DNA from: Pontederia crassipes
Taxonomy: Eukaryota; Streptophyta; Magnoliopsida; Commelinales; Pontederiaceae
Reading direction: 5' to 3'
DNA length: 64,000 nt
Assembly: GCA_030549335.1 (NCBI GenBank)
Contig: JAUKPH010000028.1
Location: 1,178,001 to 1,242,000 of the forward strand
Within the stretch, counting starts at the first letter, position 1, and every line of letters starts with the position of its first letter. The notes beneath the pieces are model-generated. The model did not search any database. It saw only the letters and a program-made list of their open reading frames with translations, and had not been told where the DNA came from. Positions 4,757 through 53,986 of this stretch are shown piece by piece. A program made the position numbers and the translations under genes.

Positions 4757-6128
4757 TTTTTATTGTTTTCCAGCTTTTCCTTAGAAATTTAAGTGGGGTA
4801 GTCTTATTGTTTTTTACTCTAATGAAGAATCAATGTTCTTGTCATGTCTGATCTGAAAATTGTATTCCAAGTCAGTTTGACTTTCAAGTTGTTACTTGGA
4901 ATCATGAACTTTCATGACTTACCAGGCAAAAGTAAGATTCCAGATTAAGATTTCCTGATTTTGCAGGTTCATGATCAACATTTTATGACATAGAAAAACT
5001 TTTATTTGATAGTTTATGTACTGTCATGATTTAATCTTTAATGGCGGGTTTGTATACTTTATAGTCGTCCATTTTGCTCTGGAGATGGCTTTAATTCTTT
5101 CAATTGCAGGATATGCAATGTTATTCTTCTTGAACTTTACAATAATTTTAATATACTACTTTTCCTTGTGCTCAAAGATGGTGGCCAATGTGCATTACGA
5201 AACAAATGCATGTGCGAGGTCAAAATCACAAGTCGTCTATGGAAGTCCAGTGATTCCATATTTTGATATGTTGCATAAGTTATGATGAATCGTAGTTTTA
5301 AATTTCTCCTCGAGAAACCTTTTCAGCCATAAGGATGTCATTCTTGATCTATTTTTCTTATTGTAGTTATTTATCTTATCTCACCTTTGTTCATATTTCT
5401 AATATTATAATGATTCAACAATTTAAATGTCACCGTTTTTCTCTCGTAGCATATTGCAAGATGATTAATGGTTTTTATTCCTCTCTCTCTCGCTCGCTCT
5501 GATTGGAATTGTGTTTATTTATCTATACTGCAATTTTAACTGTGCAGGATTTTGGTTAAGCCTCCATGGATGCCTTGTTTGGTATTTCTTTTTGGCCACT
5601 ACTTTGATGCAAAGAAAAGTGTTTGTTATGTTGTTCTTATGCTTGCAACGAGATGCTATTATCCATAATATTTTCAATGCTCATACTTGGTGGCCTATAT
5701 GCAATTAGCGGTTGCAATTAACCCATGAAGTTTTCAATGTTGCTTATTGGCACACGGGTCCTAATCATCCTTCTGGAATTGGGCAGTTATAGTCGTACTA
5801 GCAATCGGAATTGAAAGATGCTCTTGGACAACAAGTACACAAATTATACGAAGGAAGATTGTGATCATCCTCGCCACTGCCAAACTTGTCCAACCTTCCA
5901 CCCGCGCTCATCGCTCACAACCCGCAACCCGACTTTGCTGCTCATTGCTTGCAATCCTTCCATTATTAAGTACAAGTGGTACCATTTCGATGTGTTTCGA
6001 TTATCATGAAGCAATCTGATCAATTTTTATTATTAGAAACTTATTCCACGTGTCACAGATAATCATATGAATTTATAATAATACAAATTGTGAAATTTTT
6101 ATGCTCTTACTTTGCCTGCTTTGGCCAG
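4757..6128. other. Intergenic, no gene recognised
   Basis: AT-rich sequence with short chance reading frames only. It holds the presumed 3' UTR of the coiled-coil gene and a short CT run near 5480-5500. I see no repeat or coding signal. Confidence 0.6.
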
Positions 6129-14612: not shown

Positions 14613-17161
14613 TCAAAAAGAATATTCCTTCAGATCAGCCTTTGAATCGCCCACTTCCATATCTGTAAGGCACTCCTCAGCAGTCAGTGGAGGAAGGTTC
14701 CTCGTCTTCCTCTTCAGATTATGCTTGTGCCAATCAGATTTGAAGTGTTCCCTATATGGTCTAGAATCTCCCACAACAGAATCACAAGTACTGCACATGT
14801 TCTGCTTTGTCTGTTGTTCACCGCTTGTATTTTGAGTAGAAATGTTATGCTTCTGCATCCGCTCACTGAGCTGAATAACGTCATCTAGTTCCCTGCTGGA
14901 ACTTGAGAGTAACTCCTCAGAGAGCTCCTCGTACTGATCAACGTGAGCATCCCCCTCAATTTGTGCTGAAACAGCCAGTATTTCCAACCTTCCCTGAAGA
15001 TTCCTCATTAAAGTATCACAATCACGGAAAAGATTTGGTTCCATTTCACAAACCTGGATCATAAGAAAATTAGTCATATAATGATGCTAGTCCAACCAAT
15101 GAAAACGCATGGCTTCTATTAAATATACGACTTTAGATACAAACAAAGGTGCCCAAGTTTTGATATTTGAACAAATGATCTATTGTTGGTTAAGCGTTTA
15201 TACTTATAATTATTTATAAGTTCCCATGTAACAGAATACTCACAACAGATGGCTGGTTTCCTAATGCATCCTTGGAGGTAATGCTAGCACCCCAACCACT
15301 GAGCTTCTCGATGAGGGCGGAAAAATGTTTCTCGGGTACGATGAGTCGTAATCTCATAGGAGATCGCTTTATGGGGAATTGCTTCTGAAGTTCTCTTATA
15401 ACTTCTAAGGCCTGCACAAGAAGAAAAATGAAGTAATTAAACTTCCTGAATCATATTACAGAAATTTTGATAACAAATATTCATATCATGCTTTTTGGTG
15501 TAGCTCTCTTATATACCTTGAAGCAAGAGCTACCAGTCCTGGTACTCTCCTGAGTAATGTTATTTAACTGTCGCCATTCTAGTCTTATATATAATACATA
15601 AGGACTTCTGTTGTACATGGGCTATTGATTATTATGCTTGATTGACAATATTTTCACATGTATTTCATTCTAAAATAGTTGCACGTTTCTGCATCATAAA
15701 TCATCAAACTAACCGTGATCCTCAAAATTCCAAACGTTCATTGCTCACAATCAAAACAATAAAAGCAAATGAACACTCAATTACTAAGTTTTGAAATTAG
15801 CTTATCTTTTCCTTCCCCTTCGCGTCAGGTTACTAATAGAGTGGAATGGCGTTGTATGATCCATGTAGCCGACCCCACCTAGTGAGATAAGACTTTGTTG
15901 TTGTTGTTGTTTTCCTTCCCCTGACATCATGGTTCGGTTGTTATTCTCACAGATTATAACATGCCATGTTTAGTCTTCAAAGTTGTATGAGTTTGCTCAA
16001 ATATGTCTAACTGATGATAGGTAATTTTTCTTAAAAGGACTGATCATAGGTAGTTAATTTGCACTTTGGCCTGAAGCTTGTACTTAAGGAACAGTGATAG
16101 ATCATGTGGACACTATGATCAGTCATGACAGGTTAGTGCCTTTTATAATCACATCTTAAACAAGAGAAGCTTCTAAAGTTTGATCAAGCATCAAAACTAG
16201 ATAGCAAGGGATGAGACCAATACAGATTGATGATAAACCTAAACCTATTTCCAGCTGAGATCCTGTTCTGACTGGAGAATAGGTGAACCTAGCACAATTG
16301 TTGTTTTTTTTTTAGAGAGGGTTTTAGTACAATTGTTCAAGCTTGAGATTGTCCATGTTCCAATCAATCACACTCCAGGCTTACGCTATGACTTAAGTTA
16401 TACATAGGGGCAAAAAGATAAACAGTAAGCTTATCAATATCTCATATATGCAGATAATTAGAACCCAACCTGCTTCTTCGAACTGGTATTAAGATCCACA
16501 GCGAAGTGTATCTCGTGCATGAGCCGCTCGATCATGCTGATTGTATACGGGCGCTGGGTTTCTGGATTGACAGTCTTCTGCATAACGATCGTCGCTATAT
16601 CCCTGAATTGACTCGAGAGCTGCGACTCCCTTTCCTTTCCAGCAACTTGAAGCTCCCCTTTGTCCAAAATCTAGCAAGATGAATCATTTCTTAGGAATCT
16701 TAGTTGAAATCCAAGCCCTTAACGGTAACATAAAGAAAGCCATTGATAAATGCGGAAAACTGATAAATTAGTTACAACCTCCAGGCATATTTTGGATTGG
16801 TCATCGGTGCCGAACGCGGCTATCAAGTCCTTCGACTTTGCAAGGACGCCTTTCGATACGTTCGAGTAGACGGTCTGCGATTGCAAGACCTCATCCAAAT
16901 CCTTCTCGCTGTGGCAAAACATCGAACAGGTCAGCCACGAGGAAAGACAGAGAAACGCGCACTAACAAAAAACGGAATCACGACACGCGCATCGATGACG
17001 GTAGAGTCGGAGAGTTGGGAAGCTTACACTCCGGATCGCCACGAGAGGACCTTGTTCTTGTAGCAGGCGATCTCGAAGCGGTTGCCGTGCTTCTTGAGGC
17101 GGACGACGGCCACGTTCGTCAGCCGCTTCTGCCCGATGGGCTGCACCAGAGTCCTTGACAT
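14613..17161 (-). CDS. SBDS: SBDS ribosome maturation protein
   Basis: SBDS works with the GTPase EFL1 to release eIF6 from new 60S subunits in the cytoplasm. Five exons join in frame on the minus strand: 17161-17028, 16908-16779, 16670-16470, 15411-15244 and 15053-14613, for 1074 bases or 357 aa. The N-terminal FYSH domain (about 1-95) includes [21 protein letters not shown] and DLDEVL. The central domain contains FRDIATIV and NPETQRPYT, and the third domain begins near residue 156 ([13 protein letters not shown]). After residue 240 comes a plant-type extension with a C2H2 U1-like zinc finger (C298, C301, H314, H320) followed by a basic stretch. The start matches the conserved N-terminus. 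Intron 3 carries a small retroposon. The promoter side contains AGCCCA, a site II-type element read as TGGGCT on the gene strand, common in translation genes. Confidence 0.96.
15820..15909 (+). mobile_element. Truncated RTE-tail retroposon in SBDS intron 3
   Basis: About 90 bases containing gtatgatccatgtagccgac and ending in (TTG)n. They are flanked by a 13-base direct repeat, ttttccttcccct (15807-15819 and 15910-15922). This is the common 3' tail of the RTE-type family seen elsewhere in the window, inserted in opposite orientation to the gene. Confidence 0.85.
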
Positions 17162-17289
17162 CTCTCCGGCGCAAATTACCCGCCTTAGTGCGCCCGCGTG
17201 CCGCTGGCTCGCCTGCTGCGCGCTCCCTTCCGGCGAAGCTTCGAGGGACTACGAGAAATCGATGTGGCGGAGATCAAGTTTTGCACCAG

Positions 17290-17340
17290 TAGCCCGATAA
17301 AAAAGAGGCCTGATTAAAGCAGCCCAGTAAGGTGGAGACC
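17290..17340 (-). promoter_or_regulatory. Probable SBDS promoter core with site II element
   Basis: About 130-180 bases upstream of the SBDS start codon the gene strand reads tactgggctgctttaatcag, with TGGGCT as a site II-like motif and further GGGCT nearby. The same block is preserved in the duplicate near 2463-2510, where it lies between the SBDS fragment and the coiled-coil gene. Placement by motif only. Confidence 0.45.
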
Positions 17341-17412
17341 AATTCAGCGTCTCACCCACTTAAATAGAAGGCCGTAGAGACACCCAACAAAGGGATGCCC
17401 AACAGAAGTAGA

Positions 17413-26064: not shown

Positions 26065-26418
26065 TTTAGAGAAAGACCGCTTGTCCGGACAATTTTGAGC
26101 TGCGAAAAGGCAGAAGCAGATGATTTCAAACTAAGTGCATGGGAAGCTAATGAATCCCTTGAGATGAATCCAGGATTATTGACGACCGGGGCTCAGTTCC
26201 ATAAAAATATTTCAGCAAATATTTGTAAACCATTTTTCTTCAAAGAACACGAAGATTATTCTTTTGGCCTTCATGTAAAAGTTCTTTCATGACTTGATGA
26301 ACGGCCATCCATATATCCACTGCATTCTCTCTAGTAAATCATATCTTGTTGTACAACACTTTCCCTCTTGCATTTCGTGATCACAATCATTGTCCATTAA
26401 TGAAAGCTAAACTGAGCA

Positions 26419-28274
26419 AGTAACGTTCCCAAATCGACCAACGTCACGTGGCGAGAATCTATTTGAAGACGCTACAAAAACACTATAACATAGATCAAAA
26501 CTTAGATTAAATCTCAATTAAAAACAATAACATGCCAATAATAGAAGGAAAAATAGAAATATCATAAAAGCGAAAGTCTCAAAATATTACAAAGTCCATG
26601 ATAGTCATATATCTGAATTACATCAAGCTTATAATGCGGAAGATAAAGATAACTAGGCCCTCTCTTGGTTCATGTGTTTTAGCATTGTTGGTCGCGACAC
26701 ACGATCTCAACACCATCACTGACCTGGCCCTGTAGAAATTAACACAGAGGAGGAGGTCCTCCCGTAAGCTATACAGCTTAGTGGGAATCCATAAGTGCTC
26801 AATGCATAACAATAAATAGCAATAGACAGAATTAGTAATCACTTGTAACAATATCAGATCTGAGGACATAAGATCATTTGATTGAGTTATCCATGGATAA
26901 TAAAGATAAAGATCATGAGTCAATCTTATAATCATGAAGAATTTCAGTAATCATGCTTGATCAAGAATCATATTTTATTCATCATATTCATATTATATTT
27001 TCGTGCTCCTTGGGCTCTTGGGTGCCCTTAACTTGGGGGATTTATGCCAGAGCGACCAATACAACTTCGTGCAGCCAATGGATGATCAAATCATGGCTAA
27101 GGGTGCGATCCAAACATGAGCACCCAGCTTAAGCTCTGATCACCACTCTCATATACAATTCATCTTTCATACTTAATCACTTTATCACTTTGTCATACTT
27201 GCATATCATGATAGGATTGGATCATAGGACAGATTAAAATAAGATCATGGATTCAATCACATAACATTCCAATCAGTGAAGAGTAACACATAACACTCAT
27301 AAAAAGAATATAAATCAAATCAGCAATCAAACAGCATTCGATATGCAAACTGGACAGAGATCGATCGACCGATTCTCACTAGTCGGTCGACCGATTTTTG
27401 GGCACCGGTCAACCGATTTGTCTGGATCGGTCGGCCGATTAATCACAATAGTCCTTCTACACCGATCGACCGATATCTCTGGATCGGTCGACCGATAATA
27501 CTTAATCAAGAAGAGCTTCGATCGGCCGAACGATACAAGGCTCGTGAGAAATGATCGGTCGACCGATCTCCAAGGATCGGTCGACCGATTTACAAGATCG
27601 GTCGATCAGTCCGCATGAAAAACATAATCGGACAGAATCAATATAACAACGATTTTTAATCCAAAAATGCAATCAAGGCATACAATCAATCAACTAAGCA
27701 TGGAGGACTAATACAGAACACATCTATAGTCATATGAATCACCAAATATGCATCAAACACAAAAAATACAATCAATCATTCCATACCATTACTTTTCGTC
27801 AATCAAGAACACAATCCATAATAAGAACCCTAATTTCAATCAATTGCTAATCATGTTATACAAGGGGATTTTGGTATCATCCACTTTATTTCGTGATTGC
27901 TCCTAGATTGACCCTTTCCGAACACCGATAATCACTTCTTCTTAATGTTCTCCACCTAGGAAGCATTTCAATGGGGGAGAGGAAGTGAGCAATGGACCTA
28001 GAGATTAAGTGTTGCAGAAATGAAGATAAGAACTAGATGAACCTTGCTGTAACATCTTTGCCTTTGCTAGATGAAGAGCCTTAGGGAGGAAGAGAAAGAA
28101 GTGAGAGAGAGAAATGAATGAATAAGAAGGGGGGCTTTAGGGTGTAAGTGCTCTTTTATATGTTAGTATTAGGGTCTAATAGGTTAATGGGCTGCTTAAT
28201 TGGGCTATGGATTGGTCTTAACAATTTGGGTTTCATTTTCTATTATTTCTTTTTTAATTAAACCGGGTATTACG
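26419..28274 (-). mobile_element. Solo gypsy-type LTR (1.86 kb) with palindrome array
   Basis: The left end aagTAACGTTCCCAAATCG matches the LTRs at 45646 and 51760. Further blocks (gaggaggtcctcccgtaagc, and the tgccctt...ggcta segment near 27020-27110) match in the same order. A five-base duplication GAGCA flanks it (26414-26418 and 28275-28279); the LTR ends have decayed from TG to AG and from CA to CG. No internal region adjoins, so it is a solo LTR left by recombination. By comparison with 45646-53986 its own sense strand is the minus strand. It lies antisense, about 350 bases beyond the GONST1 stop, and may cut that gene's 3' UTR. Confidence 0.82.
27355..27612. repeat. Array of ATCGGTCGACCGAT palindromes inside the solo LTR
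   Basis: I count three exact copies of the 14-base palindrome ATCGGTCGACCGAT and about seven one- or two-base variants. Many keep the GGTCGACC core. Spacers are unrelated and of unequal length. The motif is fully dyad-symmetric and holds three CpG sites. Confidence 0.92.
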
Positions 28275-28760
28275 GAGCAAGTTCATACGAGCTGCATTTG
28301 AAGCAACCATGTTCAGTGAATCGAAGGGGTGGATAATGTAACAATAACATTACAAATTTAGACCTTCCATGCTACGTATGGCAGCTTCTTTCTTGTTATA
28401 TATTTTATCAGTATGAGGCTTTTATGCATCATAATGACATATTTCTAATTGATATTGGATTTGTACTCGAGAAGAGACGACACTAAAGGCGTGTGATGTG
28501 CCTGTGTGTTTCTTGTTTGACAGTTGGACGAATGATTTTCTAACACGCCAAAATAATTTAGCGTTCATGTCAGACCGATCACATGATCCAAGTAGTCCTA
28601 ATTGACTGGAGACCTTGAAGACTTAGATCTTAATGGTTTCTTAGCGTTCATGTGCCATAATTTAAGTATCAACATGCGTTTTTAGTTGTTTCTTATCTTA
28701 TAAAATTTCCCCCTCAGCACGGTCAATTATCCAAGAACATAGAGCTAAATTCCCTGGTGT
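28275..28760. other. Sequence after the solo LTR, possibly displaced GONST1 3' flank
   Basis: Non-coding. The LTR at 26419 split this from 26065-26418, so it may be part of the original 3' flank of GONST1. Confidence 0.4.
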
Positions 28761-36213: not shown

Positions 36214-37869
36214 TCAGTAACCAGCCGCCAAAGTGCCCCGTTCTGAAAGTTCTTTGCGGTGGTCTGCTATTTCCCTTCCCTCCATAACATTTGATAGCTC
36301 CTGTATTGTGCATGAGGTGCTATGCCGCATCTTGTTCCTTATGATAAAAACCTCATCTCTGAATCCCAGCTGCAACAATTTGTCTCTGATCAATTTGCAG
36401 GTACTTAAGTAAGGTGGAACCCCTTCATCGATCATCATCTTAAAATAGGAACAAGCATCCTCAACTTTACCCTTTTTCTTACACAATCCATGGATCATAA
36501 CAGCGTATGAGGATGCACAAGGATAATATTGCTTCCTTTGCATTCCATCCCAAACTTCCATTGCACGGTCGATCCTCCCAACTCCGATCAACATTTTCAA
36601 CAGCATATTATATGTATGACGGTCGGGTGAGCACTCATCTTTTTCCATCCTTTCTAACAATTTAAGGGCCTTACTCACCTCATGCAACCTGCAATGAACA
36701 ACAAGTATCGTGTTATAGCTCCAGACATCAGGCTTCGATCCATGCTCAATCATCTCATCAAGTAGCTCGTAAGCTTCAGCCATCTTCTCTTTTTCACATA
36801 GCAATCTTATGATAGCATTGTAGGTGAACACATTGGGCACAAGGTTATGCCTCCGCATCCTATCCAGCACTTTAATGACAGAATGCAGGTTCCTTTCCTT
36901 GTAAGCTGCATGGATGAATGCTGAGTAAGTTGCAGCATCCGGTTTGAGAGAGTGAACCTTCTGCATCTCCTGCAACCGGGCATGGGCCTCGTGGAGCTCA
37001 CCTGACCGGCACAGGGCTAATATAAGGGAATTGTAAGCGACGACGTCCAATGGGCAACCTCTTTCGATCATTTCATCGAACAGCTTCATAGCTTCCTTGG
37101 AATTTCCCAGCTCGCCCCAGCCATTTATCAAGATGCTGAAGGTTTTGCGGTCCACGGGGAATCTTGATTTGGATTGATCGAAGAAGGATTGGGCAGCCTC
37201 AACAAGGCCATTGCGACAGAGGGAATGAAGCAGCTGGTGGAGGTCGTCGAGGCCGGGTTCGAGGCCGAAGTCGGACATCCGTCTAAAGGCACGCACCGCG
37301 TCATTCGGGAGGCGAGCACGGGCGTAGGCGCGGAATATGACCCAGAACGTCTCCGGGCTGCGGCCGAGGTGATTATCGCGTTCCTCTCCGCCGCGGGAAG
37401 CACCGCGGAGATCGAACAGAAAGGACCACAGGAGGGGAAACTGGCGGGCGGCGGCGAGGGACTCGACGTGCACGAGGTGCGCGCAGGCAGAGTGGCGGAA
37501 GCCCGGGAGGGCGGCGGACCAGAGGAAGAAGCGGTGCGCGGGGGAAGGGAGGTGGACGCAGCGCTTGAGCACCTGCTCGGCGGCGGACGGGGTGAGGGAG
37601 GGCGCGAAGGGCCGGAGAGCGGCGGCGAGGTCGTGGTGGGGCGCGCGGTGGTCGCTGAGGACGCGGCAGATGTCGTTGACGAGGCGATGGTCGGGTGCGA
37701 CGGAGGACGGCAGCCGCGGCGCAGCGGAAAGGGAGGAGAGGGCGGCGAGGCGACAGTTGGGAGGGGTAATGGCCGAGAGGGCGGGCGACTTGGTGACGAC
37801 CATTTCACATTTGAATCGTTCGCCACGTTTCCCCAATTTGAGGCTTGAGGGAGTCGACGTCTTTGCCAT
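36214..37869 (-). CDS. P-class pentatricopeptide repeat protein, At1g52640-like, probably mitochondrial
   Basis: A single exon of 551 codons. PPR proteins bind organellar RNA with tandem 35-residue helix pairs, one base per repeat. About nine to ten repeats lie between residues 165 and 510, with typical blocks such as TFSILINGWGELGNSKEAMK, DVVAYNSLILALCRSG and PNVFTYNAIIRLLCE. There is no E, E+ or DYW tail, so it is P class. The N-terminal block NDICRVLSDHRAPHHDL, the PFAPSL segment and the C-terminal SCTIQELSNVM match the family of Arabidopsis At1g52640. The first 60 residues are Ser-, Ala- and Arg-rich, fitting an organelle presequence. The second Met (MVVTKS, residue 23) is an alternative start. 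GC content is very high in the first third and drops along the gene, a monocot trait. RNA target unknown. Confidence 0.93.
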   Translation of the reverse strand: MAKTSTPSSLKLGKRGERFKCEMVVTKSPALSAITPPNCRLAALSSLSAAPRLPSSVAPDHRLVNDICRVLSDHRAPHHDLAAALRPFAPSLTPSAAEQVLKRCVHLPSPAHRFFLWSAALPGFRHSACAHLVHVESLAAARQFPLLWSFLFDLRGASRGGEERDNHLGRSPETFWVIFRAYARARLPNDAVRAFRRMSDFGLEPGLDDLHQLLHSLCRNGLVEAAQSFFDQSKSRFPVDRKTFSILINGWGELGNSKEAMKLFDEMIERGCPLDVVAYNSLILALCRSGELHEAHARLQEMQKVHSLKPDAATYSAFIHAAYKERNLHSVIKVLDRMRRHNLVPNVFTYNAIIRLLCEKEKMAEAYELLDEMIEHGSKPDVWSYNTILVVHCRLHEVSKALKLLERMEKDECSPDRHTYNMLLKMLIGVGRIDRAMEVWDGMQRKQYYPCASSYAVMIHGLCKKKGKVEDACSYFKMMIDEGVPPYLSTCKLIRDKLLQLGFRDEVFIIRNKMRHSTSCTIQELSNVMEGREIADHRKELSERGTLAAGY

Positions 37870-40800
37870 CTCTGGTTTTTACGTGGTTTTGACGCTTAAA
37901 AGTTAAAATCTCGGTAAAAACTCAGTTAAATAATTCACGAAGGCTTCCAATGTTTCTTGCTCTGTTTTATGTTTGAAGCTAAAAAAATTGCATCTGAATC
38001 CATTGAGGAAAAAAAACTTATGTAATATTGGAAAAAAGTATTTTTTTACATTTAATGAGGGGAAAATTATTTTCCCAGACACCATCAAATTTTACATAAA
38101 TGTTTATAATTTTGAAAATGCCGTCAAAAATAAATTTTCTTCGTGATATATTTTCTATTAAAAATAAAAAACTATGGGTGAGAATGGGTCGCCCTCTTTT
38201 TGCTGTTGGCATTCGAACATAGTTACAACAATTCGACGTGGCCAAATTTAGCATTTGTTCAAGAATCCTTCAATCAATTCACTCTAACAACTTTTGGTTA
38301 GAGTCAAGACCGAGTTAGCATATAAGACACTTGATTAATCCGATCATGAATTATAATAAAAATAAGTATACCATATTTTCAATTGTTTGGTTTGGACAAT
38401 GTTTGATAATTGTAATTGTGAAATTTGTTACATACAAATTTATTGTAAGCTTTGATCATAGCAAATACATTATTCAATAGTTCTTTTATAAAAGAATCTC
38501 TTAGTTCCCTAAACACAACTAGTAAATTTTAGATGCCATCTAGTAAAGTTTTTCCATGGAACCCACTATGACTATGCTATAAGTTAATAATAGCACATTA
38601 TAATTTATATCACTCCATAATCGATCAAAACCCATCTCCAAATTTCATGCAGATAGGCTCTTTTCGATCACCAAACAAGTTGCCTTCAAATGTCATAATT
38701 GATGACAATGAATGGTCCATGGCACAGTGATTGCCAAACCATGGTTGATCACTGGTGACAGTGGGAATAGAGCGTCCAACCTTACAAAAAGCACGTTAGC
38801 GAAGGGAATTAATTTAAAAATAAATAATTTAAAAATAAGGATAATCGAAAATGACCCAGATTTTCAAACTTTTTTTTATTCATACAGGACATCTCAATTT
38901 GGGTTCAAATTGCATTCGGACCCTAATAAAAATTAATGTTATCTTTTTCGGTAAAAAAATTGATCAGAATTGGAATTGTCCTATTTTTCGCGCACACTTT
39001 GATTATGCACCCCCTAATAAATGCAACATTTTGTTGTTGCTAATAAATTCATAAAGGCATGCTCTAATTAAGGCTGAAAGTGGCATGTTCAAACTCTAAT
39101 TTTATGCTCTATTGAAAAAATCAATTTTTAAAATTTGGGTGATTTTTAAACACATAAATGATTGGATGATTTTTTTAACATATAAATGACCATCCTAAAT
39201 TTTTTTTCTTGAAGAAAAAAACTCAAGTGGTCTCAATTTTTTGGAATCAAGGTCTACTTTAAAATAATATTATTTTAACATTTTTTTATATTAAATATAT
39301 TACGTAGATGTTTTAAAAAATAAAATTTAACTCCAAATTTAAATATTAATATAAATAAATCAAAGTAACATATTATCACATGATAATTTAAAATATTCTA
39401 GTTAATTTTGTACAATCTTTATTAAATTAATAATATTCAAATTTAAATGCATCATAATAATTTAATAATATAAGTAAGAGAAAAGAAAAAAATTATAAAA
39501 CATTATTTAAAAATTAAAGTGATATTTTAGTTATAATAATTTTAAAAGTGTATTTGATTTGGATTGGATAAAAGTATTCTAATTTAAACGAGTGATTTTA
39601 TTTATTTCAAAAAATTATCCTAAATTTTAGATTAATATTTTCTGTTTGGTTAAATTTTTTGGAGGATTAGATTTTTACTTCGGCCCCTAACCCCTATGAA
39701 CTTGAGAGTTTTAAGTCGTGCATCTGCTATTTTATTCCTTGATCAAAACATGCACAAAATAATTAAGTTTGATTGTTACAACTTGTTGGAAAAATGACTG
39801 AATTTTTTAGAGTTAATATCTTCGTATTTAATTTCTAGAATAATGTCTCTTAATCTTTCATCAAGATTAAATTACTCATATGCTAATAATCTTCAATGGA
39901 ATTAATGGGGGTCCTCCCCTTGTAAGGGGGGAGGAACGCTCTCCCTCCATCTGCGCTTGTCAGATCTCCATCCGGCGGGCGCAGATTTCATGTGCGATTT
40001 AAGGTGAAATCAGGCGGTTCGATTCGAATTTCGGTTCAGCTCGAATTTCATAGGTGGTTCAAGGTGACGAACTGGCGAAAATGGTGCGGCGACGACCACG
40101 AACGGCAAGTGCGATGACGACCACGGGGCGATGACCACGTGCGTCGACGGCCACGAAACTTCGACGTGATGAGCGGCTGATCTCGCGGGGCAGCAACGAC
40201 CAGATCCACCTGCGAGCGATCATATTGATCATGCCGCCCATAGGCTGCTCGGACGTCGGGCGGCTAGATCAGGCCGCCCGTAATCAGAACGGCCGCGGGG
40301 CGACCAAATTCGGTCGGTCGCAGCCAGAACGGTCACAGCCAGAATGGTCGCCGGACGGCCAGATTTGATAGCGGGCGGCCGGATCGGCCGTAATCAGATT
40401 GGCCGCGGACGGCCAGATCCATGTGGTCATCGCCGGAGTGAGTGAATGTCGCCGGAGGGAGAGAGGGTTGCCGGATCCACGTGGTCATCGTTGTTGCCGT
40501 CATGGTCATCGCCGCCGTGGTCATCGCCGCCGCTCACGAAGTTGAGGGCTCGGACGAAAAAAATGTAACTTTTTACCCCATGAACTAACGGCTTTTTACC
40601 CATGAACCAACCAAAAAAATGAATTGGACTGGCGTCGATGAGGGAGGACCCAATTACATCCATCTTCAATACCATGCCCCCGTGGGTATATAAAAACGTG
40701 TGGCAGAACGTTTTGCACGCGCTTCACTGTATATGTCACTGTCGTTGTTATTGTCTTGGTTTTTTTTATTTCAAATCTTTTGAACTCCTTTTACAAATTT

Positions 40801-41010: not shown

Positions 41011-44000
41011 ATGGATTTGGAGACGGTGAAGCGCTCGCTGGAGGCCGCGGCCTCCGACATCCTCCCGACGCCGTCGCTCGCGGGCCTCCCTTCCAAGTTC
41101 TACGACGCCTTCATCCTCCGTGGCCTGCGCGTTGACCTCATCGAGCGCGGACGCCTCCTCTGCTCCATGACCGTCCCCCGTCGACTACTCGTACTCACTG
41201 TCTCCTCTTCCTCTGTGCCCTCTTCTCGCTCTCCGTCCTTTCCGTTACTATTCTCTTCGCACTGATATGATATTTCGCAGAACACCGGTAACTTCATGCA
41301 CGGCGGCGCGACCGCTTCGTTGGTGGATCTCGTCGGCTCGGCCGCCTTCTTCACCGCCGGCGCCCAAACGAAGGGCGCGCCTCTGGAGTTGAGCATCTCC
41401 TATTTGGATGGAGCCTTCAGCGAGGTTCATCTCTTTCCGATTTATTTTGGGGAGATTTTGAAGATGCAAGATAAACGCTTTTCTTTTGCCCTTTTTCTGT
41501 AATTTATAGCTAATGGACATAGTTATAACAGCAATACTTCATTGTTTGAACTCTTTTCTAACATGTCTCCGAGGCTGCAAATATTCATTAAAATTATTTT
41601 TTCAACATAAAGTTTCAGTACCCGACAACTCCGCCTATATTTTATAGCCGGTCCCAAGCTCGGATAAAGGAGGAGAGTTTCAACGTAAAATTCTGTCGAA
41701 TCTTATGAACATGGATCAACGAATATTAGCCGACCCACCTAGTGGGATAAGGCTTTGTTGTTGTTTGTTGTAAAGTTTCAATACCAGAGCGTTTCTACTT
41801 TTCTAGACAAGTTAACAAAATTCCACCTATTTTTTTTATGCTCATGCTTGTCCTGATTTGTTACTTTCTAAACCTATCATGATCTCCATCCTAATGTTTT
41901 TTTTAGAGGAACTCCATCTTAATTCATCCAAAATTCCTTCTCAAAAAGAGAGAGAGAGAGAGAGAGAGTTCATCCAAAACTATTTTGTATTCATGGAGAT
42001 CTTGCAGGTTGAGCGTCTGGCTGAGAATCTACTTGTACTTTTCAACCCTTTCATTTGACTTTATCATGTAATTTTCTTTGGCTTCCTTTCATTTTGTCAT
42101 GTCATTCAAACAAGGTTAATTATTCACCTTCATTCTCTTTCATTTATTTCTCCTTTTTTTTTCTTCCCCTTCTTTACCTTCTCTTCCCAAACAATTCCAC
42201 GACATTCTATTATGACATGAAAAAAATGAAGAGCCAGTTTAATCTACACAATATATAGGGCTTCCCGAAAGATGCATTTGTTTGAGAACCTTCCTTGCTT
42301 GGTCTCTTTTATGCTATATTCTCCTTTGGTTGTATTGGCTATGGAAGCTTAAGATGTTTGTTTTGGAGTGAAAAAAAGGTAAAGAGGGCAAAGGGAAAGG
42401 AGGGTAATAGTTTGTCCTTGTTTGGTTGAATTTATAATGAAGGAGAATGAAGGGAAAGCCCCTCCAACACCTCATTTTTTTCAACCTCAAAATGAAGTGT
42501 AGATGAGAGGAAAGCACGAAATGAAATAGATTATTTCCTATTTCATTACAATATAAATATATTTAAAAGCCGGCAGTGTTATATGGTAGTGAATGTTGGA
42601 CTATGAAGGGACAACATGAACGTAAAGTGGGAGTAGCCGAAATGAGGATGTTGAGATGGATGTGTGATCATACAAGATTAGATAAGATTAGGAATGATCA
42701 TATACGTGAACGAGTCGGAGCGACTCCTATTAGTGAGAAAATGATTGAGAATCGTTTGAGATGATTTGGTCATGTTCAGAGAAGACCATTAGATGCGCCA
42801 GTAAGAAGAGTAGATCAAATAATATGGAGTCCGATTAAAAGAGGGAAAGGGAGGCCAAGGCGGACACTTGGCGAACTAATAGAGCAAGATCTATTGGTGA
42901 ATAATATACTGAAAGGTTTGATTACTAATAGAGCGGAATGACGACGTATGATCTATGTAGCCGACCCCACCTAGTGGGATAATGCTTTGTTGTTGTTGTT
43001 GTATAAATATATTTAAAAAATAATTTGTTCAAATAAAATTATCACTCAGCATTCATTCTCTCTTCCTCTTACTCATGTCATCCAAACAAGTTAATCGTTT
43101 ACCTCTATTCTCTTCTGTTTCTCTCCTCCACTTTGCCTCTCCCTTTGTTACCTTACCTTTACCTTAATGAATCTTCAATCAAACAGTGAGTCTTTGAGCT
43201 GTGTTGGATTTTTTTTTTTGAAACAACAACAACAACAACAAAGCCTTATCCCACTAGGTGGGGTCGGCTACATGGATCATACGACGCCAAATATATTCGT
43301 TGATCCATGTTCATAAGATTCGACATGATTTTATGTTGGCTGTCGGGGCCTAACACAACCCTCCTCCTTTATCCGGGATTTTTTTTTTGAAAAAGGAAAA
43401 ATAATTGTTAAGCAGCCCTGATTTTTGTTATATGGGTTAAACTTCATGTCGTTAAGCAGAGTGAGCACAAGTTCCTCAGCATCAATTTAAGATTTTTCAA
43501 CGTATATATTCTTTGTATTTCATCAAAATATTTTCCAACATCAACTCTCACTACCAGATTTGTTACTTTTTTAAATATAGTATATAACCTTAGCATGACC
43601 TCCATCTTTTTTTTCTTTTTGAGAAAGGGCCTCCATCTTATTTCGTCCAAAACTATTTCGTATTCATGAGATCTTGTTGGTCAAGTGCCTGGTTGACAAT
43701 CTGTTCATGCTTTCAACTCCTTATGAGTAATATATACATATGAGGAATATTGGGGCGCATTTTAGCATATGCTTTTGCTGGCTTGCTGGATGATTTAAGA
43801 AATAAATATCTTGCTTTAGCTTGTATTTAACAGCAGAATTATGGAAAGCACTTCTTCTGTAGACTGCAGGTTTCTGAGTAACTCTTCATACTTTATTTGA
43901 ATATATTGTTTTAGCTTGTACTCTTGATCATATTCTTTGAGTTGAGCCTTTTTGTGGGGAGACAGCGTAATAACGGTCAATTGTACAACAACAACAACAA

Positions 44001-45645: not shown

Positions 45646-47914
45646 TGTAACGCCCCCAAATCGACCCCCGCCACGTGGCGAAGACCAATTTGGAGACGCT
45701 ACGGCATGCTATAACTTGACCATAATATTGACCATATCTCAGTCAGAAACTGAGACACGTCAGCGAAAAAATAATAAAATAAAAGAAGATAACATAATTA
45801 TGCGGAAGTCTAAAAGTAATTATGTCATTACTAAGAGATAAACTGAGTTCTACATCATGAATTTAAAATGCGGAAGGTAAATAAAAACTAAATAACACTC
45901 TAAAAGCCCTATGGTTCATGTGTTGTCCTATCGCCAGAGCCTCATCACCACACGCCTACTCCACCACGTTACTGACCTGGTCCTGTGGAAATCAGACACA
46001 GGGGAGGAGGTCCTCCCGTAAGCTTTACAGCCTAGTGAGGAACCACATGATATACAATGCATGACATGAATATAATAATCAGCGATAATTAATCAGGCTT
46101 AACTTGAGCATGAAAGATAGCATATAAGTATCATGGATCATAATAAGGATAAGATCAGCGATATCATGAATCATGAGGATCAATAGTACATAGTAAACTT
46201 GGAATCATGACATACTTGACTTGACTTGACTTGAACTTGAACTTGAACTTGAACATGCTTGTCGATCTTGGTTATTAATTAACAATCAGGGTGACTTTGA
46301 GGTGCCTTTAATTCTTGGGGTATGCCCAGCAAACGATACGGCCTTGTGCGGGTCAATGGGTGATCAAACCATGATCAAGGGAGCGACCCTTATCTTGATG
46401 CACTTGGCTTGGACTGGCAACCCATCATTAATCTTTCATCTGAACTTATTAATCACTTTTATTATCTTTTCATTCTTTGTATCATGTGATGAAGGAGATA
46501 TGATCGGTACGAGGTAAATCAAGACAAAGAGTTAATGTTGGAATTATAAGGAAATCAATAATGTTCATGTCAAAATAAAGAAAGACTAATGGGTGAATTT
46601 TGCTGGATTTTACGCCTTCACCTCTTCTGGATTTTTACGCCCGAAGAATCCTTTCACCTTACGGCCGTAAAACCCTAATCCTTTGGATTTTACGCCCGAG
46701 AATTTCTTTCACCTTACGGTCGTAAAACCCTAATCCTTTGGATTTTACGCCCGAGAATTTCTTTCACCTTACGGCCGTAAAACCCTAATCCTTTGGATTT
46801 TACGCCCGAGAATTTCTTTCACCTTACGGCCGTAAAAATTAACCCTTATTACGTTACGGCCGTAAAAACCCTATTTTCTATTCTATTTCGGCCGTAAAAA
46901 TTCACCCCTTTTGCATTACGGCCGTAAACTCTACTCTCCATTCTATTTCGGCCGTAAAAATTAACCCTTACGGCCAATCCATCTCCTTCTCTCTCCATCC
47001 TTTCCTTACGACCATAAAGTTTTCCCCTATTGCATTACGACCGTAAGCTTCATCCCTTTTTCTTTTTTTTCTTTCTCTTACGGCCAATCCTTACGGTCGT
47101 AAAAATTTACCTCTATTGCATTACGGCCGTAAGAATTTACCCTTTTTCTCTCTCCATCTTTTTCTCGACCGTAAGACAATTACGCCCAACAAATTTACGG
47201 CCGTAATACTTCTATTTTAAAATTGGGTCGTGTTATAAAACCAAAAATGGAATCCCCTCTAAATCTTACATCCTAACAATCAATAATACAGTAATATAAC
47301 AAACAGAAATAACTATGCATGCTACAATCAACCAATCAAAGAATTCAAGAAATCAAACAATTAAAAACAATAACTTGAATCATATTCATATTCTTTTCAT
47401 AACGATTCGGGCATGAGTTGAGATAATTCAGAGGCCATGCAAGGTGATTTCGATTCACCCACCTGAACGCGATGGATCCTACCCTTGATTCGTTAAAAAA
47501 AAATCCGTTCGAATCCGCCCTTGTTCCCTCTCGGTTCTCTTGCTGTTCCTCCTCTCGAATTCTATCCTTGCGCAGAAATCTCCCTACTTCGGATCGCGTA
47601 GGAGGGGAACGAAGCAAAACCGGGAAGGATTCGTGAGATTGCTGGAACCAGAAATTTAATGGCCAATTGATTTTTATCTCCCTCAATTCTCTCGTGAATA
47701 CCTCTCATATACATATATATATATATCTGATAAGGTTTTTATTTTAATCTAATCTTCTTCTCAAAATTAAATTTGAAGAGATTAGATTTAATTTTTCTTT
47801 CCTTTCAAACTTTGAGTGGGATTTGATTTTTAATTTCCCATGTGCTTTGCTCGGCCACCCATCACGATTTGTTTTCTTTTCTCTTTTTTTTTTATCTTTT
47901 TGTTGGTTGTTACA
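45646..47914 (-). repeat. LTR of the gypsy element (left copy)
   Basis: Ends TGTAACGCCC and GGTTGTTACA. Differs from the right copy by scattered substitutions, one extra 55-base palindrome unit and a shorter (AT)n near 47707. It contains no real gene; a 71-codon open frame near 46302 is present in both copies and is not a protein I recognise. Confidence 0.93.
46590..47215. repeat. TTACGGCCGTAA palindrome array, left LTR
   Basis: By my count seven exact copies of the 12-base palindrome TTACGGCCGTAA and about seven variants lie in 600 bases. The first four sit in a regular 55-base tandem unit containing cctttggattttacgcccga. The rest are irregularly spaced. Half-site forms (ttacgccc, ttacggcca) also occur. 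Confidence 0.93.
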
Positions 47915-47939
47915 TTCTTACCTCCTTAAAAGAAAATTC

Positions 47940-48140
47940 GTCCTCGAATTTTGCACTAAGTAGATGGCTTACCGAAAAGATGAGAGAATTCTTGGCGCAT
48001 TTCCGATTCAAGTTCCTATGTCGCATCATCGCCTTTATGGAAATGCCAAGCTACTCTGACCATGGTTACGTCATTGTTCTTCTGGCGTTGCACCTTGCGC
48101 TCCACTATGTGCGTTGGATACTCAGCGAAGGTCAGGTCTA
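47940..48140 (-). pseudogene. Decayed gypsy integrase C-terminal/chromodomain-like tail
   Basis: On the minus strand a frame reads YPTHIVERKVQRQKNNDVTM, then VRVAWHFHKGDDAT, a stop, ELESEMRQEFSHLF. This matches the pattern of the gypsy pol tail, where a line like VKVLW...EEATWE precedes the polypurine tract. It lies directly inside the LTR, as expected, and is broken by stops. Confidence 0.7.
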
Positions 48141-48297
48141 CGAATTCTTAACGTCATGCATCATCATCTAATAGGATTTCTGATGCTCTACTTTTTTTTT
48201 TCTCCACATTGACATGCTGGGTACTTGGGACTTATTTTCGTATCTCCATGTTTCATGTCATAACTATTTATTCATCCTTATACATTTGTGTCCTTCC

Positions 48298-48470
48298 CGA
48301 ATGGATCGCAACCCAGGCTTATGGTTATATCCTTATACTTCTTTGTACTTTTTAAATGGATCGTAACCCAGGCTTATAATATTTATCACATACTTCCTAT
48401 AAGACTTATTCCTAAATGGACCGCAACCGAGGCTTATGTTATTTATCTAGTACTTCTCTCTTTAGGACTT
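48298..48470. repeat. Three-unit tandem repeat, about 60 bp
   Basis: Units each contain aaatggatcgcaacccaggc or a variant (near 48299, 48355 and 48414), followed by a tatttat-type AT-rich half. Internal to the gypsy element. Confidence 0.8.
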
Positions 48471-51400
48471 CATCATTTGGATTTCACATGCTTGGTTCCT
48501 TCATCATTACATACGCAGCCTCATGAAGCCTAGCGAGCATCATTTGTGTCTGAGTGTATGTGTAACTGAGTTCATTTTTTACCAAAATGGTACTTCATGA
48601 AGAACTCATAATCTTTCAAACTTCATGTTATCTTTATTATCACATATTAGCATACTACTAAAAGAAAATATACCTAGGACTTTTTTTTTTAAACGATGAA
48701 CACTTCAATTTTTTTCTACGTAAATGTGGGCATAGTTTGAACACAATGTTCTTGAGGACCTAAAAGTTTGAGGGCTATTCTTAGACCAATGGCATCGCTC
48801 AATTTATAGTGATCATTCATTGTCAGGAAAATTATCTTCATTACTTCCTCTTCAGCAACTCGAACTACTGGTACTCACTCCCTAGATCGATCTTGAGAGC
48901 ACTTAGCCTTAAATAGGTCATGGTAACAAACACTTATGTCTTGATAGTTATTTTATTTAACAACTTGTTAATAAATATCTAGATTCATAGAGTCATCATT
49001 CTTCTTTACAAAAGATGTGAAACATCTAAAAATGAGACCATCAGTCTCATAAGCCCCTTGTCTTGAAGTTATTAAATTTATCTTTTTCAGTTCGTGTGTC
49101 ATGGGGCCTTGAAAATCAAGGTCATGCGTGAAAAGAGATCGATATGACACTCAACTTCTAACTATATCTTTTAGATTTTCCAATACTGGCAACTATCTTC
49201 TTCTTCTTTTTTTTTCATAATACCTATACATCTTAAAAGGAAGAATCAAATAGGAATCCCAACGTAATCCTCCTAAGGAGTTTCTAGCCGATGTTAAGAA
49301 TAGATCTTATCTTCAATCATCATTAATATCACTAGCATGAACTTCATGGTATAAAGTTATTTCCATAGGGTCATCGTCCTTATCGGGTGACCTATGTCAT
49401 GTAACAATCAATATGATCACTAAGAACATTGTCTGTCATCGTAGATAATGGCATCATCATATGATTCGATAAAATTGGTGATGGAATCATGTCAATCATC
49501 ATCTTTATAAGGTCACTTTAGATCAATAACTTTTCACGATGACCTATGTTTGATGTGACCTTACTCTAAACATCATTATAATCATTTAACTTTTGATATA
49601 TTGATCTGGTTCTTGCAATGTCATATCATATAATTTCATAGGAGGCTAGTGATTATATATTACCACAGCAAGTTCTTTTCTTGAATATCTTAAAGCACTT
49701 TGAATTAATGTTAAGGTCGAATGATATCTACGCTGAGGGGTCGCTACATAGTATGTTCTAATCCATAATTAACAGAACAATTTATGTGCACTACATAACA
49801 TAAATCCTTAGTCAAACATCATGAATGTATGTAGACACATGGAATGAATTCAAACAATAAGACAGGAAAACAAAACAATCAACAAAATAGAAGACAAGCA
49901 ATCATTCTTCTTCTTCGTGCATTATTTCATGATCTTTTGCATTAACGATATCTTGCAGTACATGTGAGAGGGTCGGAAAAACTTTAAAGTTGGAAAGGAG
50001 AACTAATCCATTTATAAGACTTATGATCAAATCATAAGTGATCCACTTGATCAAGACAAAATCTTAAACATTTTTCATCATACTGACGTAGAGGCATCTT
50101 AGAGAACATTCTATGTATCACTCGATGGCTTGCTTAATCTATTATCTAAACATATATATGATTTATTTTCCCTTTTGAACCATCAACCATGATTATATGA
50201 TTGAATACCCTATACGTTTTGACATTATTATGAAAACTATAATTATATTAAAACTTGCATAATCATCCCTCTCGGATGCATAACTTGCTTTCCAAAAATC
50301 TTGTAGGGGATTTATAAAATTCCTCATACTTTACCTTAACCCCTCCATACTTTCTAAAAATTTCCTCACTTGGCGTTTTGATCTTTTAATACTTAATGGC
50401 TGGATGCTCATGTGCCTCCTCAAGCTTATCTCAGTTAAAATATCTTAAATCTTTTCAAAATTTCTCACATCCAATTTAACTCTTTTATGCCTTGCTTATT
50501 CTTATATAATTCTGGTATTAACCATATTAGTCTATTTTGAAAATATATATACATTGCGATGTTAGAGAATTCATTCTTTAATAATGGCTATATAAAATAT
50601 ATTTCATAATATTAAAATTCCAAATCCACCCTATACTAAACTAAGTTAATTAAATCTAATTATTTATTTATTTATCTTTATATATTTATAAGTATACTAT
50701 GTTATATGTACATATGCGTATGAATATGCTAGATTTAAATGTTCGATTAACTCAAATAGTCACTTACTCATTGAAAATTCCTTCTAACATTTATTCAAGC
50801 TAATGTGACTTCTAAACCCTTTAAGCTTCTATATTTGTCCATCCATACCTTATACATGATTCTTGGACAGCTTACTAATTCTTTAAACTCTTGTGTATGG
50901 ATATTACATAACTTGAACATAATTAATAATTTGATTATTATTTTTCCACATAAAGTAGTCCAACTAAGAATTTCGTATAACTAGTTTAGATTTGCTTAGG
51001 TCCATTATCCACATAATAAAGGGATCATATGAAGTCTAAGGCGCAAGAAGCATTATGGGTCCATACTTATCAACATAAACATATAAGATAATTTATTGAA
51101 CCCTTATATTGGTAGACCAATGGAACCACCTAAATCATCACCATAAATCATAACTTATGCATGCTTGGTTTCACCTCTACTATTTGAAATCATCTCACAC
51201 ATACGTGTTGTGTGAGTCGAATCCTTTAATTACTCTTATAATTCCTTCGTTTCTTTCTTAAATCTACATCTCTTTGCAACTGATATACTTATTCATTTTC
51301 CTCTTCATACTGCTGCAGTCAGCAGAAGAAGTCCGTGAATAGAGCAATCATGAAAGAGATGAAAAACATGGATTATAAGAAACATCATCGTTTCTTATAT

Positions 51401-51740
51401 TTTGTTCTTTAAATATCTGTAAGACCTTTTTTTTCACGTAGGTATATTTATCCACATGCATGTTGTTTATTCTTTTCCAATTTGTTCGTAACCTTTATGA
51501 TCCTTTTTGTTTAATCACTAATAACTTTTAAGTTGATTCCTACCATACAGAGTGACCTTCCTAGGAATCAACCACTCATGTGAAATACATATCAATACAT
51601 CAATAAAGAATAACTTAATGCAAGAAAATCTTACTTGTACTTTACGGTGGAGGGTGTGGCGACTGCATGGCGATAGCACATGAACCTCTTACCATACTAT
51701 ACTATTCCATACACTAGGACGTCAAGAGAGTCCTAACTTT
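48471..51740. other. Internal region of the gypsy element, no coding sequence
   Basis: AT-rich with no frame of any length and no recognisable gag or pol block. This is what makes the element non-autonomous. Confidence 0.7.
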
Positions 51741-51754
51741 AGGCTCTGATACCA
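51741..51754 (-). promoter_or_regulatory. Primer-binding site of the gypsy element
   Basis: Reads TGGTATCAGAGCCT on the minus strand, complementary to the 3' end of initiator Met tRNA, five bases from the LTR. Confidence 0.88.
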
Positions 51755-51759
51755 TAAAT

Positions 51760-53764
51760 GTAACGCCCCCAAATCGACCCCCGCCACGTGGCGAAGACCA
51801 ATTTGGAGACGCTACGGCATGCTATAACTTGACCATAATATTGACCATATCTCAGTCAGAAACTGAGACACGTCAGCGGAAAAATAATAAAATAAAAGAA
51901 GATAACATAATTATGCGGAAGTCTAAAAGTAACTATGTCATTACTAAGAGATAAACTGAGTTCTACATCATGAATTTAAAATGCGGAAGGTAAATAAAAA
52001 CTAAATAACACTCTAAAAGCCCTATGGTTCATGTGTTGTCCTATCGCCAGAGCCTCATCACCACACGCCTACTCCACCACGTTACTGACCTGGTCCTGTG
52101 GAAATCAGACACAGGGGAGGAGGTCCTCCCGTAAGTTTTACAGCCTAGTGGGGAACCACATGATATACAATGCATGACATGAATATAATAATCAGCGATA
52201 ATTAATCAGGCTTAACTTGAGCATGAAAGATAGCATATAAGTATCATGGATCATAATAAGGATAAGATCAGCGATATCATGAATCATGAGGATCAATAGT
52301 ACATAGTAAACTTGGAATCATGACATACTTGACTTGACTTGACTTGAACTTGAACTTGAACTTGAACATGCTTGTCGATCTTGGTTATTAATTAACAATC
52401 AGGGTGACTTTGAGGTGCCTTTAATTCTTGGGGTATGCCCAGCAAACGATACGGCCTTGTGCGGGTCAATGTGTGATCAAATCATGATCAAGGGAGCGAC
52501 CCTTATCTTGATGCACTTGGCTTGGACTAGCAACCCATCATTAATCTTTCATCTGAACTTATTAATCACTTTTATTATCTTTTCATTCTTTGTATCATGT
52601 GATGAAGGAGATATGATCGGTACGAGGTAAATCAAGACAAAGAGTTAATGTTGGAATTATAAGGAAATCAATAATGTTCATGTCAAAATAAAGAAAGACT
52701 AATGGGTGAATTTTGCTGGATTTTACGCCTTCACCTCTTCTGGATTTTTACGCCCGAAGAATCCTTTCACCTTACGGCCGTAAAACCCTAATCCTTTGGA
52801 TTTTACGCCCGAGAATTTCTTTCACCTTATGGCCGTAAAACCCTAATCCTTTGGATTTTACGCCCGAGAATTTCTTTCACCTTACGGCCGTAAAAATTAA
52901 CCCTTATTACGTTACGGCCGTAAAAACCCTATTTTCTATTCTATTTCGGCCGTAAAAATTCACCCCTTTTGCATTACGGCCGTAAACTCTACTCTCCATT
53001 CTATTTCGGCCGTAAAAATTAACCCTTACGGCCAATCCATCTCCTTCTCTCTCCATCCTTTCCTTACGGCCATAAAGTTTTCCCCTATTGCATTACGGCC
53101 GTAAGCTTCATCCCTTTTTCTTTTTTTTCTTTCTCTTACGGCCAATCCTTACGGTCGTAAAAATTTACCTCTATTGCATTACGACCGTAAGAATTTACCC
53201 TTTTTCTCTCTCCATCTTTTTCTCGACCGTAAGACAATTACGCCCAACAAATTTACGGCCGTAATACTTCTATTTTAAAATTGGGTCGTGTTATAAAACC
53301 AAAAATGGAATCCCCTCTAAATCTTACATCCTAACAATCAATAATACAGTAATATAACAAACAGAAATAACTATGCATGCTACAATCAACCAATCAAAGA
53401 ATTCAAGAAATCAAACAATTAAAAACAATAACTTGAATCATATTCATATTCTTTTCATAACGATTCGGGCATGAGTTGAGATAATTCAGAGGCCATGCAA
53501 GGTGATTTCGATTCACCCACCTGGACGCGATGGATCCTACCCTTGATTCGTTAAAAAAAAATCCGTTCGAATCCGCCCTTGTTCCCTCTCGGTTCTCTTG
53601 CTGTTCCTCCTCTCGAATTCTATCCTTGCGCAGAAATCTCCCTACTTCGGATCGCGTAGGAGGGGAACGAAGGAAAACCGGGAAGGATTCGTGAGATTGC
53701 TGGAACCAGAAATTTAATGGTCAATTGATTTTTATCTCCCTCAATTCTCTCGTGAATACCTCTC

Positions 53765-53802
<38 letters not shown>

Positions 53803-53986
53803 GATAAGGTTTTTATTTTAATCTAATCTTCTTCTCAAAATTAAATTTGAAGAGATTAGATTTAATTTTTCTTTCCTTTCAAACTTTGAGTGGGATTTGA
53901 TTTTTAATTTCCCATGTGCTTTGCTCGGCCACCCATCACGATTTGTTTTCTTTTCTCTTTTGTTTATCTTTTTGTTGGTTGTTACA
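51760..53986 (-). repeat. LTR of the gypsy element (right copy)
   Basis: Same ends as the left copy. It has one palindrome unit fewer and a longer (AT)n run near 53770-53800. The palindrome array is at about 52710-53265. Confidence 0.93.

Follow-up and report, generated by a model that had tools for sequence, protein, structure and literature searches.

The window, by which we mean the whole stretch of 64,000 nucleotides of Pontederia crassipes DNA that was analysed, contains a solo LTR and an element with two LTRs, and all three LTRs carry arrays of short palindromic boxes. Their features are as follows:

26419..28274, minus strand (sense): solo LTR, with the 5-bp duplication GAGCA at 26414-26418 and 28275-28279
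26752..26783, plus strand: conserved LTR block (GGAGGTCCTCCCGTAAGC...), the basis of the genome-wide LTR sampling
27360..27610, no strand assigned: solo array, 10 units near ATCGGTCGACCGAT, start-to-start spacing 22, 22, 22, 35, 22, 38, 33, 22, 21
28154..28160, minus strand: predicted TATAAAA, the sole TATA[AT]A[AT] match in the solo LTR
45646-53986, sense minus: element with the target-site duplication TATAT on both sides
45646..47914, minus strand: LTR1 of this element (3' LTR in sense)
46659..47206, no strand assigned: LTR1 array, 13 units near TTACGGCCGTAA (at most two mismatches)
47915..51758, minus strand: internal region of the element, 3.8 kb, lacking long pol frames
47959..48141, minus strand: remnant of the gag-pol C-terminal (putative chromodomain) end, with an internal stop
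51743-51754: primer-binding site TGGTATCAGAGC, adjoining the sense 3' end of LTR2
51759..53986, minus strand: LTR2 of the element (5' LTR in sense)
52772..53264, no strand assigned: LTR2 array, 12 units near TTACGGCCGTAA (at most two mismatches)

The minus strand was taken as the sense strand of both the solo LTR and the element, as judged from TGGTATCAGAGC behind the sense 3' end of LTR2 and from AAGGAGG, a purine-rich tract that precedes LTR1 and ends beside it. The primer-binding site presumably pairs with the initiator Met tRNA. LTR2 differs from LTR1 by 15 substitutions in 2212 aligned positions, and the LTR1 array equals the LTR2 array plus one exact 55-base unit. The ends of the solo LTR read AG...CG on the plus strand, where the canonical ends are TG...CA. 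All 10 units of its array lie within three mismatches of ATCGGTCGACCGAT, three of them being exact, and the CpG observed/expected ratio is 1.6-1.9 in the two bins that cover the array. In both window LTRs the sole TATA match, a predicted one, is found 5' of the array (in sense LTR positions, TATA at 115 with the array at 665-915 in one, and TATA at 190 with the array at 709-1256 in the other), and the solo array thus lies about 550 bases 3' of TATAAAA. The arrays are therefore probably situated inside the transcribed leader. The first 57 bases of the LTRs (45646-45702, 51759-51815, and 26419-26476) make up an imperfect inverted repeat with CCACGTGG at its centre, which is ~70% complementary (blastn against itself, other strand) and adjoins the primer-binding site in sense.

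Elsewhere in the window lies a PPR gene (36214-37878); of the matches listed for it, the most similar come from Canna (72%), Musa (70%), and palms (68%), which points to a commelinid monocot as host, probably one close to Zingiberales. Two direct repeats (1995-2524 and 16828-17357), ~94-99% identical and 14.8 kb apart, are possibly the LTRs of a large element. The RNase H frame at 1018-1527 we take to be copia. Short repeats ending in TTG runs are scattered over the window (15830-15910, 42922-43002, 43222-43289, 43993-44060, 54108-54188, 58497-58564, and 60352-60432); they presumably resemble Au SINEs.

Judged from its sequence, the LTR family belongs to Ty3, probably to the chromoviruses, and includes non-autonomous members. 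This assignment is based on the domain order of a gag-pol frame and on the window remnant, which is 79% identical to the end of that frame. The open frame comes from the same genome and has an array-bearing LTR on either side; its RT and RNase H come before the integrase. The following domains were detected: Retrotrans_gag, RVP_2, RVT_1 (660-820), RT_RNaseH (913-1007), Integrase_H2C2 (1117-1173), and SH3_Tf2-1 (1409-1474). The rve domain (1195-1289) scored slightly under its curated cut-off, and at the end of the frame the Chromo domain (PF00385, 1501-1544) was matched with E 0.009 and 16.3 bits against a cut-off of 25.1. Intact copies of the family are present in the genome, and the one autonomous relative that was read has little room for a gene other than gag-pol. 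The identity between the remnant at 47959-48141 and the end of the intact frame extends over 61 residues (E 2e-23). The remnant alone gave no chromodomain match in Pfam, the protein database, or PDB; its weak Pfam match to SiaC (E 0.013) was taken as chance. As in Ty3 families, the LTRs are flanked by short duplications (GAGCA, TATAT) and accompanied by the TGGTATCAGAGC primer-binding site. Traits of Sireviruses were also looked for: the internal region of the 45646-53986 element contains no AGGGGGAG polypurine tracts, and in place of the Sirevirus junction CA/ATTGG-TATCAGAGC the element reads TTACA-TTTATGG-TATCAGAGC.

According to an earlier note on this DNA, the solo LTR and the 45646 LTR carry different palindrome arrays at a homologous position. 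Our alignments confirmed this, as the flanks align on both sides. The left flanks of the two arrays are 64% identical over 858 columns, and the right flanks reached an alignment score of 47.5 (46.0 for LTR2) against a maximum of 40 in the controls, which were three sets of 366-378 random window blocks each. The ~150-170 bp immediately to the left of the arrays gave no alignment between the two LTR types. Neither type carries the motif of the other at the cut-offs used (up to three mismatches for ATCGGTCGACCGAT, up to two for TTACGGCCGTAA). The window contains 9 matches to ATCGGTCGACCGAT (at most two mismatches) and 24 to TTACGGCCGTAA (at most one), compared with 0.08 and 0.12 on average when the window was shuffled locally 100 times. 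Plain 12-bp dyads with at most one mismatch were counted per 300 bp; the array bin held 8, a number also reached by one of ten whole-window shuffles. The signal is thus the repetition of one motif, not dyads as such. The note had further stated that position and symmetry are conserved while sequence is not. Position is indeed conserved, but the statement about sequence is too strong, because ATCGGTCGACCGAT and TTACGGCCGTAA share the half-site CGG...CCG.

The host genome (1.13 Gb) was searched with the block pattern, and 1998 places with at most three mismatches were found. The sample consisted of 50 LTRs, namely the first 30 loci returned and 20 picked to cover both block variants; it is not random, since all of them are on contigs C1-C3. 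For each LTR, the most frequent 10-bp palindrome with at least four G+C was determined at the slot. A CGG-CCG palindrome was the most frequent one in 46 of the 50 LTRs. The dominant palindrome was CGGTCGACCG in 26, TACGGCCGTA in 17, and CACGGCCGTG in 3 LTRs, with none in the remaining 4; L033, in which CGACCGGTCG and CGGTCGACCG tied at six, was tallied as CGGTCGACCG. All three CACGGCCGTG arrays also contain CGGTCGACCG units. The first box is located 585-784 bases from the block in the 46 arrays. Three LTRs are cut short: the LTR homology of L027 stops 282 bases after the block, that of L035 gives way to another LTR at 619, and L071 breaks off within the array, where it retains one exact CGGTCGACCG unit and one with two mismatches. 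When the LTRs spanning or filling the slot are considered, 46 of 47 have a CGG-CCG array. L080, a young-looking LTR, spans the slot without palindromes, and its homology resumes on the far side. Its slot (~560-1090 bases past the block, within G000:C2:29447510-29449490) holds a pyrimidine-rich stretch with conserved sequence on both sides. The arrays of L011 and L015 contain TTCGGACGTCCGAA-like and TTCGGTCGTCCGAA-like boxes beside CGGTCGACCG, which make a fourth CGG-CCG type. In the whole genome, ATCGGTCGACCGAT occurs exactly at 5187 places, compared with 3 for the arm-swapped palindrome ATCCGTCGACGGAT, and TTACGGCCGTAA occurs at 6690 places, compared with 8 for its backward control.

A tree was built from the array-free flanks of 41 of the 50 sampled LTRs, each element being represented once, together with two window rows; nine second or truncated LTRs were dropped. 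It shows two clades with support of 100/100, a solo clade of 18 rows and an LTR1 clade of 25 rows. In the solo clade, 17 of 18 rows have CGGTCGACCG, and the remaining row is L071. The LTR1 clade comprises 12 TACGGCCGTA rows, 8 CGGTCGACCG rows, 3 mixed rows, and 2 without boxes; several branches within it are weakly supported. All 12 TACGGCCGTA rows fall inside one group of 15, together with 3 CGGTCGACCG rows (support 86/94). With three box states, the tree needs five changes, the minimum being two. Because CGGTCGACCG is placed in both clades, it is the shared and probably older type, while TACGGCCGTA appears on this tree as a later type, arisen inside the LTR1 clade. The box difference between the solo LTR and LTR1 would then be younger than the split of those LTRs, because TACGGCCGTA arose inside one of the two clades. 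As mixed arrays exist, arrays holding both box types may have lost one or the other differentially; the cassette may also have been exchanged between flanks. In a first tree of 34 rows, partly chosen by palindrome, L042 was grouped with CGGTCGACCG rows (98/93); it has no resolved place in the larger tree, and this grouping was discarded. The earlier expectation of one palindrome per subfamily is thus borne out as far as the fixed slot, the usually single dominant palindrome per array, and the confinement of TACGGCCGTA to one subclade are concerned. It fails for CGGTCGACCG, which occurs in both clades, for the three mixed rows, and for the slot-spanning LTR without palindromes.

The same boxes were also found outside this family. 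Twenty loci were examined, drawn from the exact ATCGGTCGACCGAT places that come first on contig C1. The LTR block is present in 14 of them; L015 is related to one of these, and L007 is ambiguous. L012-L014 represent another family carrying ATCGGTCGACCGAT. An ORF in L058, located ~6 kb from the L014 array, presumably resembles an Athila integrase; its Pfam search gave no match. In L026, a copia RNase H match (E 5e-9) directly precedes the boxes. In L026/L082, AGGGGGAG tracts occur at three places after the first boxes and are followed by two more box cores and then by TATAAAAGG, 98 bases past the last box core, so the boxes there are just 5' of the TATA box. This order corresponds to the published Sirevirus layout, with copia pol, repeated AGGGGGAG, boxes in linker and LTR, and then TATA. 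By these features, L026/L082 is a Sirevirus-like Ty1/copia element with the same CGGTCGACCG boxes. The occurrence of the same boxes in a Ty3 family and in a Ty1/copia element suggests that both use the same host factor or structure.

Pattern scans of viral contigs for the motif gave no match, and those of bacterial and archaeal contigs gave two, L001 and L002. L001 (Glycomyces) carries ATCGGTCGACCGAT exactly twice at 5693-5738, at a distance of 32 bases, perhaps as the operator pair of an unrelated regulator; being bacterial DNA, it was set aside as unrelated to the arrays. L002, a contig of 3156 bases filed under an Acidobacteriota MAG, has six units arranged in pairs 21 apart, five of them with at most one mismatch and the other with four. 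It looks like plant LTR retrotransposon DNA contaminating a public genome. As its sequence outside the array gave no convincing match to the window LTRs, it shares the motif and not the slot.

The symmetry of single units was analysed in 30 loci, which were partly chosen by palindrome. Of their 128 CGG-N4-CCG units, 95 have TCGA at the centre, and 2 of the other 33 centres are palindromic, where about 1 in 16 is expected by chance. Outside the core, the arms match no better than after shuffling within the locus, and no within-locus covariation was detected. Among the units of the window arrays, the variants have lost symmetry in the manner expected from random substitution. Since no compensatory change was seen within units, it is the CGG...CCG sequence that is kept and not symmetry as such. 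In the pool of CGGCCG units from all loci, covariation was seen at positions 2 and 3 outside the core (z 9.3 and 6.7), with the TAC and CAC types differing in both arms together; this covariation reflects few family-level events. These data bear on the model of the earlier note, in which selection acts on dyad symmetry itself and the palindromes change along with an element-specific binding protein. Such a model would explain the pooled covariation, the difference of the TAC and CAC types in both arms, and the clustering of TACGGCCGTA on the tree. We nevertheless consider it very improbable. Arm shuffling within the locus reproduces the symmetry and palindromic centres other than TCGA are about as frequent as by chance, which speaks against selection on symmetry. 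A co-changing protein is disfavoured by the presence of CGGTCGACCG in both clades, by the same core in a Ty1/copia element, and by the little room beyond gag-pol in the autonomous relative.

The upkeep of the boxes was followed in nine LTR pairs more than 95% identical; ten pairs were tried, and L030/L031 (82%) was dropped. After insertion, 28 of 1435 positions had changed in the boxes and 21 of 5725 in the spacers (odds ratio 5.4, p 1e-8), so the boxes mutate about five times faster than the spacers. Substitution counts of the flanks, a stretch that may extend past the LTR, were left out of this comparison. In all ten pairs, L030/L031 included, transitions account for 46 of 51 box changes, and such an excess would be expected for methylated CG and CHG sites. 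Nevertheless, in every one of the 46 arrays the boxes resemble one another more closely than the spacers do (0.77 vs 0.34), a difference inflated by the picking of boxes by likeness. Although they decay faster, the boxes are what is conserved in the arrays, and their sequence thus seems to be maintained in the copies that multiply. The arrays could instead have no function and be a by-product of reverse transcription, with template switching and palindrome correction homogenising any motif present; a copying process, which the earlier note had suggested as well, may indeed homogenise the arrays. The exact 55-base unit by which LTR1 and LTR2 differ, the one dominant motif per array, and the both-arm change between families would agree with such a process. 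However, copying should carry the spacers along, and these differ while the boxes are alike in every array; nor is correction of imperfect units towards symmetry seen within loci. The process would also leave unexplained the CGG-CCG boxes in Ty1/copia and in both Ty3 clades, as well as the 3 places of the arm-swapped control against 5187. We therefore rate this explanation as improbable.

The box spacings cluster near 21-23 and 30-32 bp, though the spacer sequences differ. Intervals of 20-23 bases make up 115 of 220 for CGGTCGACCG, and for CGGCCG 61 of 205 intervals are 30-32 bases long and 19 are 55; these counts are not independent, because spacings and arrays are related by descent. Many intervals (55, 36, 46, and others) fit whole helical turns poorly. 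The reading that we prefer, and to which we give an even chance, is that the array is a cis-acting LTR module of this Ty3 chromovirus family, usually with ~5-15 CGG-CCG boxes, bound by a putative dimeric protein of the host. A host DNA-binding dimer is favoured because of the spacing, the indifference to spacer sequence, and the use of the boxes by two superfamilies. Such a protein would bind CGG-(N4 or N0)-CCG as a dimer and occupy several boxes, and the bound boxes would often lie on the same helix face (22 and 31 bp are about two and three turns). When bound, it might raise transcription or protect the LTR from silencing, and the elements would keep the boxes because copies without them would multiply less. 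The motif would change mainly because arrays that have both box types lose one and because units are gained and lost rapidly, and less by slow joint change of the arms. Against this reading, the array lies 3' of the sole TATA match, which is unusual for a promoter array, the young-looking L080 spans the slot without boxes, and the strong folding of the RNA would suit a role in RNA equally well.

The position 3' of the predicted TATA in both window LTRs would suit boxes that act in RNA, either as leader hairpins for packaging, dimerisation, or translation, or as small RNAs for host silencing, each self-complementary unit pairing with neighbouring units. The sense strand folds beyond its shuffles, with z of -8.4 for the solo array (200 shuffles), -11.4 for LTR1 (20 shuffles only), and -8.7 for L002. 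Clusters of palindromes in maize Sireviruses are also reported to be small-RNA hotspots (Bousios 2016, as cited in the available excerpts of PMC10760457). Hairpins, however, need pairing between one unit and another and not units that mirror themselves, and no compensatory change is seen inside the units. Moreover, the same box lies 5' of TATA in the Sirevirus-like element, where it would be outside the leader. We regard action in RNA as a serious rival reading, albeit a rather unlikely one.

Should Ty1 and Ty3 elements be served by one and the same box, a single host factor or structure may govern a large part of the plant retrotransposon load. The factor could then be sought by pull-down with one short sequence, which the genome contains exactly at 5187 places. 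With its three box types at a fixed slot, the family offers natural swaps for testing the role of the boxes.

Known systems were compared with the arrays. In the open-access literature, no report of such arrays in Ty3 elements was found besides the papers cited here, and a literature text search for four motif strings returned no paper on retrotransposons, judged by title. Tnt1 resembles the window family in that the subfamilies of its superfamily share most of the element and differ in a regulatory LTR module; it belongs to Ty1/copia, its variable module is U3, and the stem "palindrom" is absent from the accessible text (PMC1838419). Similarly, the LTR family crapaud of Podospora is split into subfamilies by divergence in one LTR half; it is fungal, and the accessible part of its description mentions no palindrome array (PMC10787394). 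The maize Sirevirus clusters share with the window family clustered palindromes and predicted hairpins, but they are Ty1/copia and linked to small RNAs, whereas the window family is Ty3; the excerpts describe maize Ty3 elements as generally having no obvious peak of such structures (PMC10760457).

The closest likeness is to the Sirevirus repeated motif (RM), for which we rely on the sections available of Bousios et al. 2010 (PMC2829016). There, palindromic repeats are described in 13 Sireviruses, all but one of them CGG-CCG; the box mostly differs from one Sirevirus to the next, and the boxes are called Sirevirus-specific, against classic Ty1/copia elements. The RM and the window arrays have in common high-copy CpG-rich LTR palindromes with a CGG-CCG core and a box that differs between families. 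The box of the Vitis Sirevirus is CGGTCGACCG, which is also the core of the solo-LTR array (PMC2829016). Where an RM array has at least 8 CGG-CCG palindromic boxes per element, there are 10 in the solo LTR and 12-13 in each paired LTR. The RM belongs to Ty1/copia and lies 5' of a conserved TATA, whereas the window arrays belong to a Ty3 family, probably a chromovirus, and lie 3' of the sole, predicted TATA match (PMC2829016). With somewhat less than even confidence, we propose that CGG-CCG arrays are a shared cis code of plant LTR retrotransposons and not a Sirevirus trait. Unrelated Ty1 and Ty3 families of one genome would have come to share a palindrome by acquiring it, each at its own position in the LTR, exploiting, or being caught by, one host dimeric DNA-binding factor, and the slot would be a swappable cassette. 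Unlike the Sirevirus RM, the window family changes its box inside one family, at one slot, and with mixed arrays.
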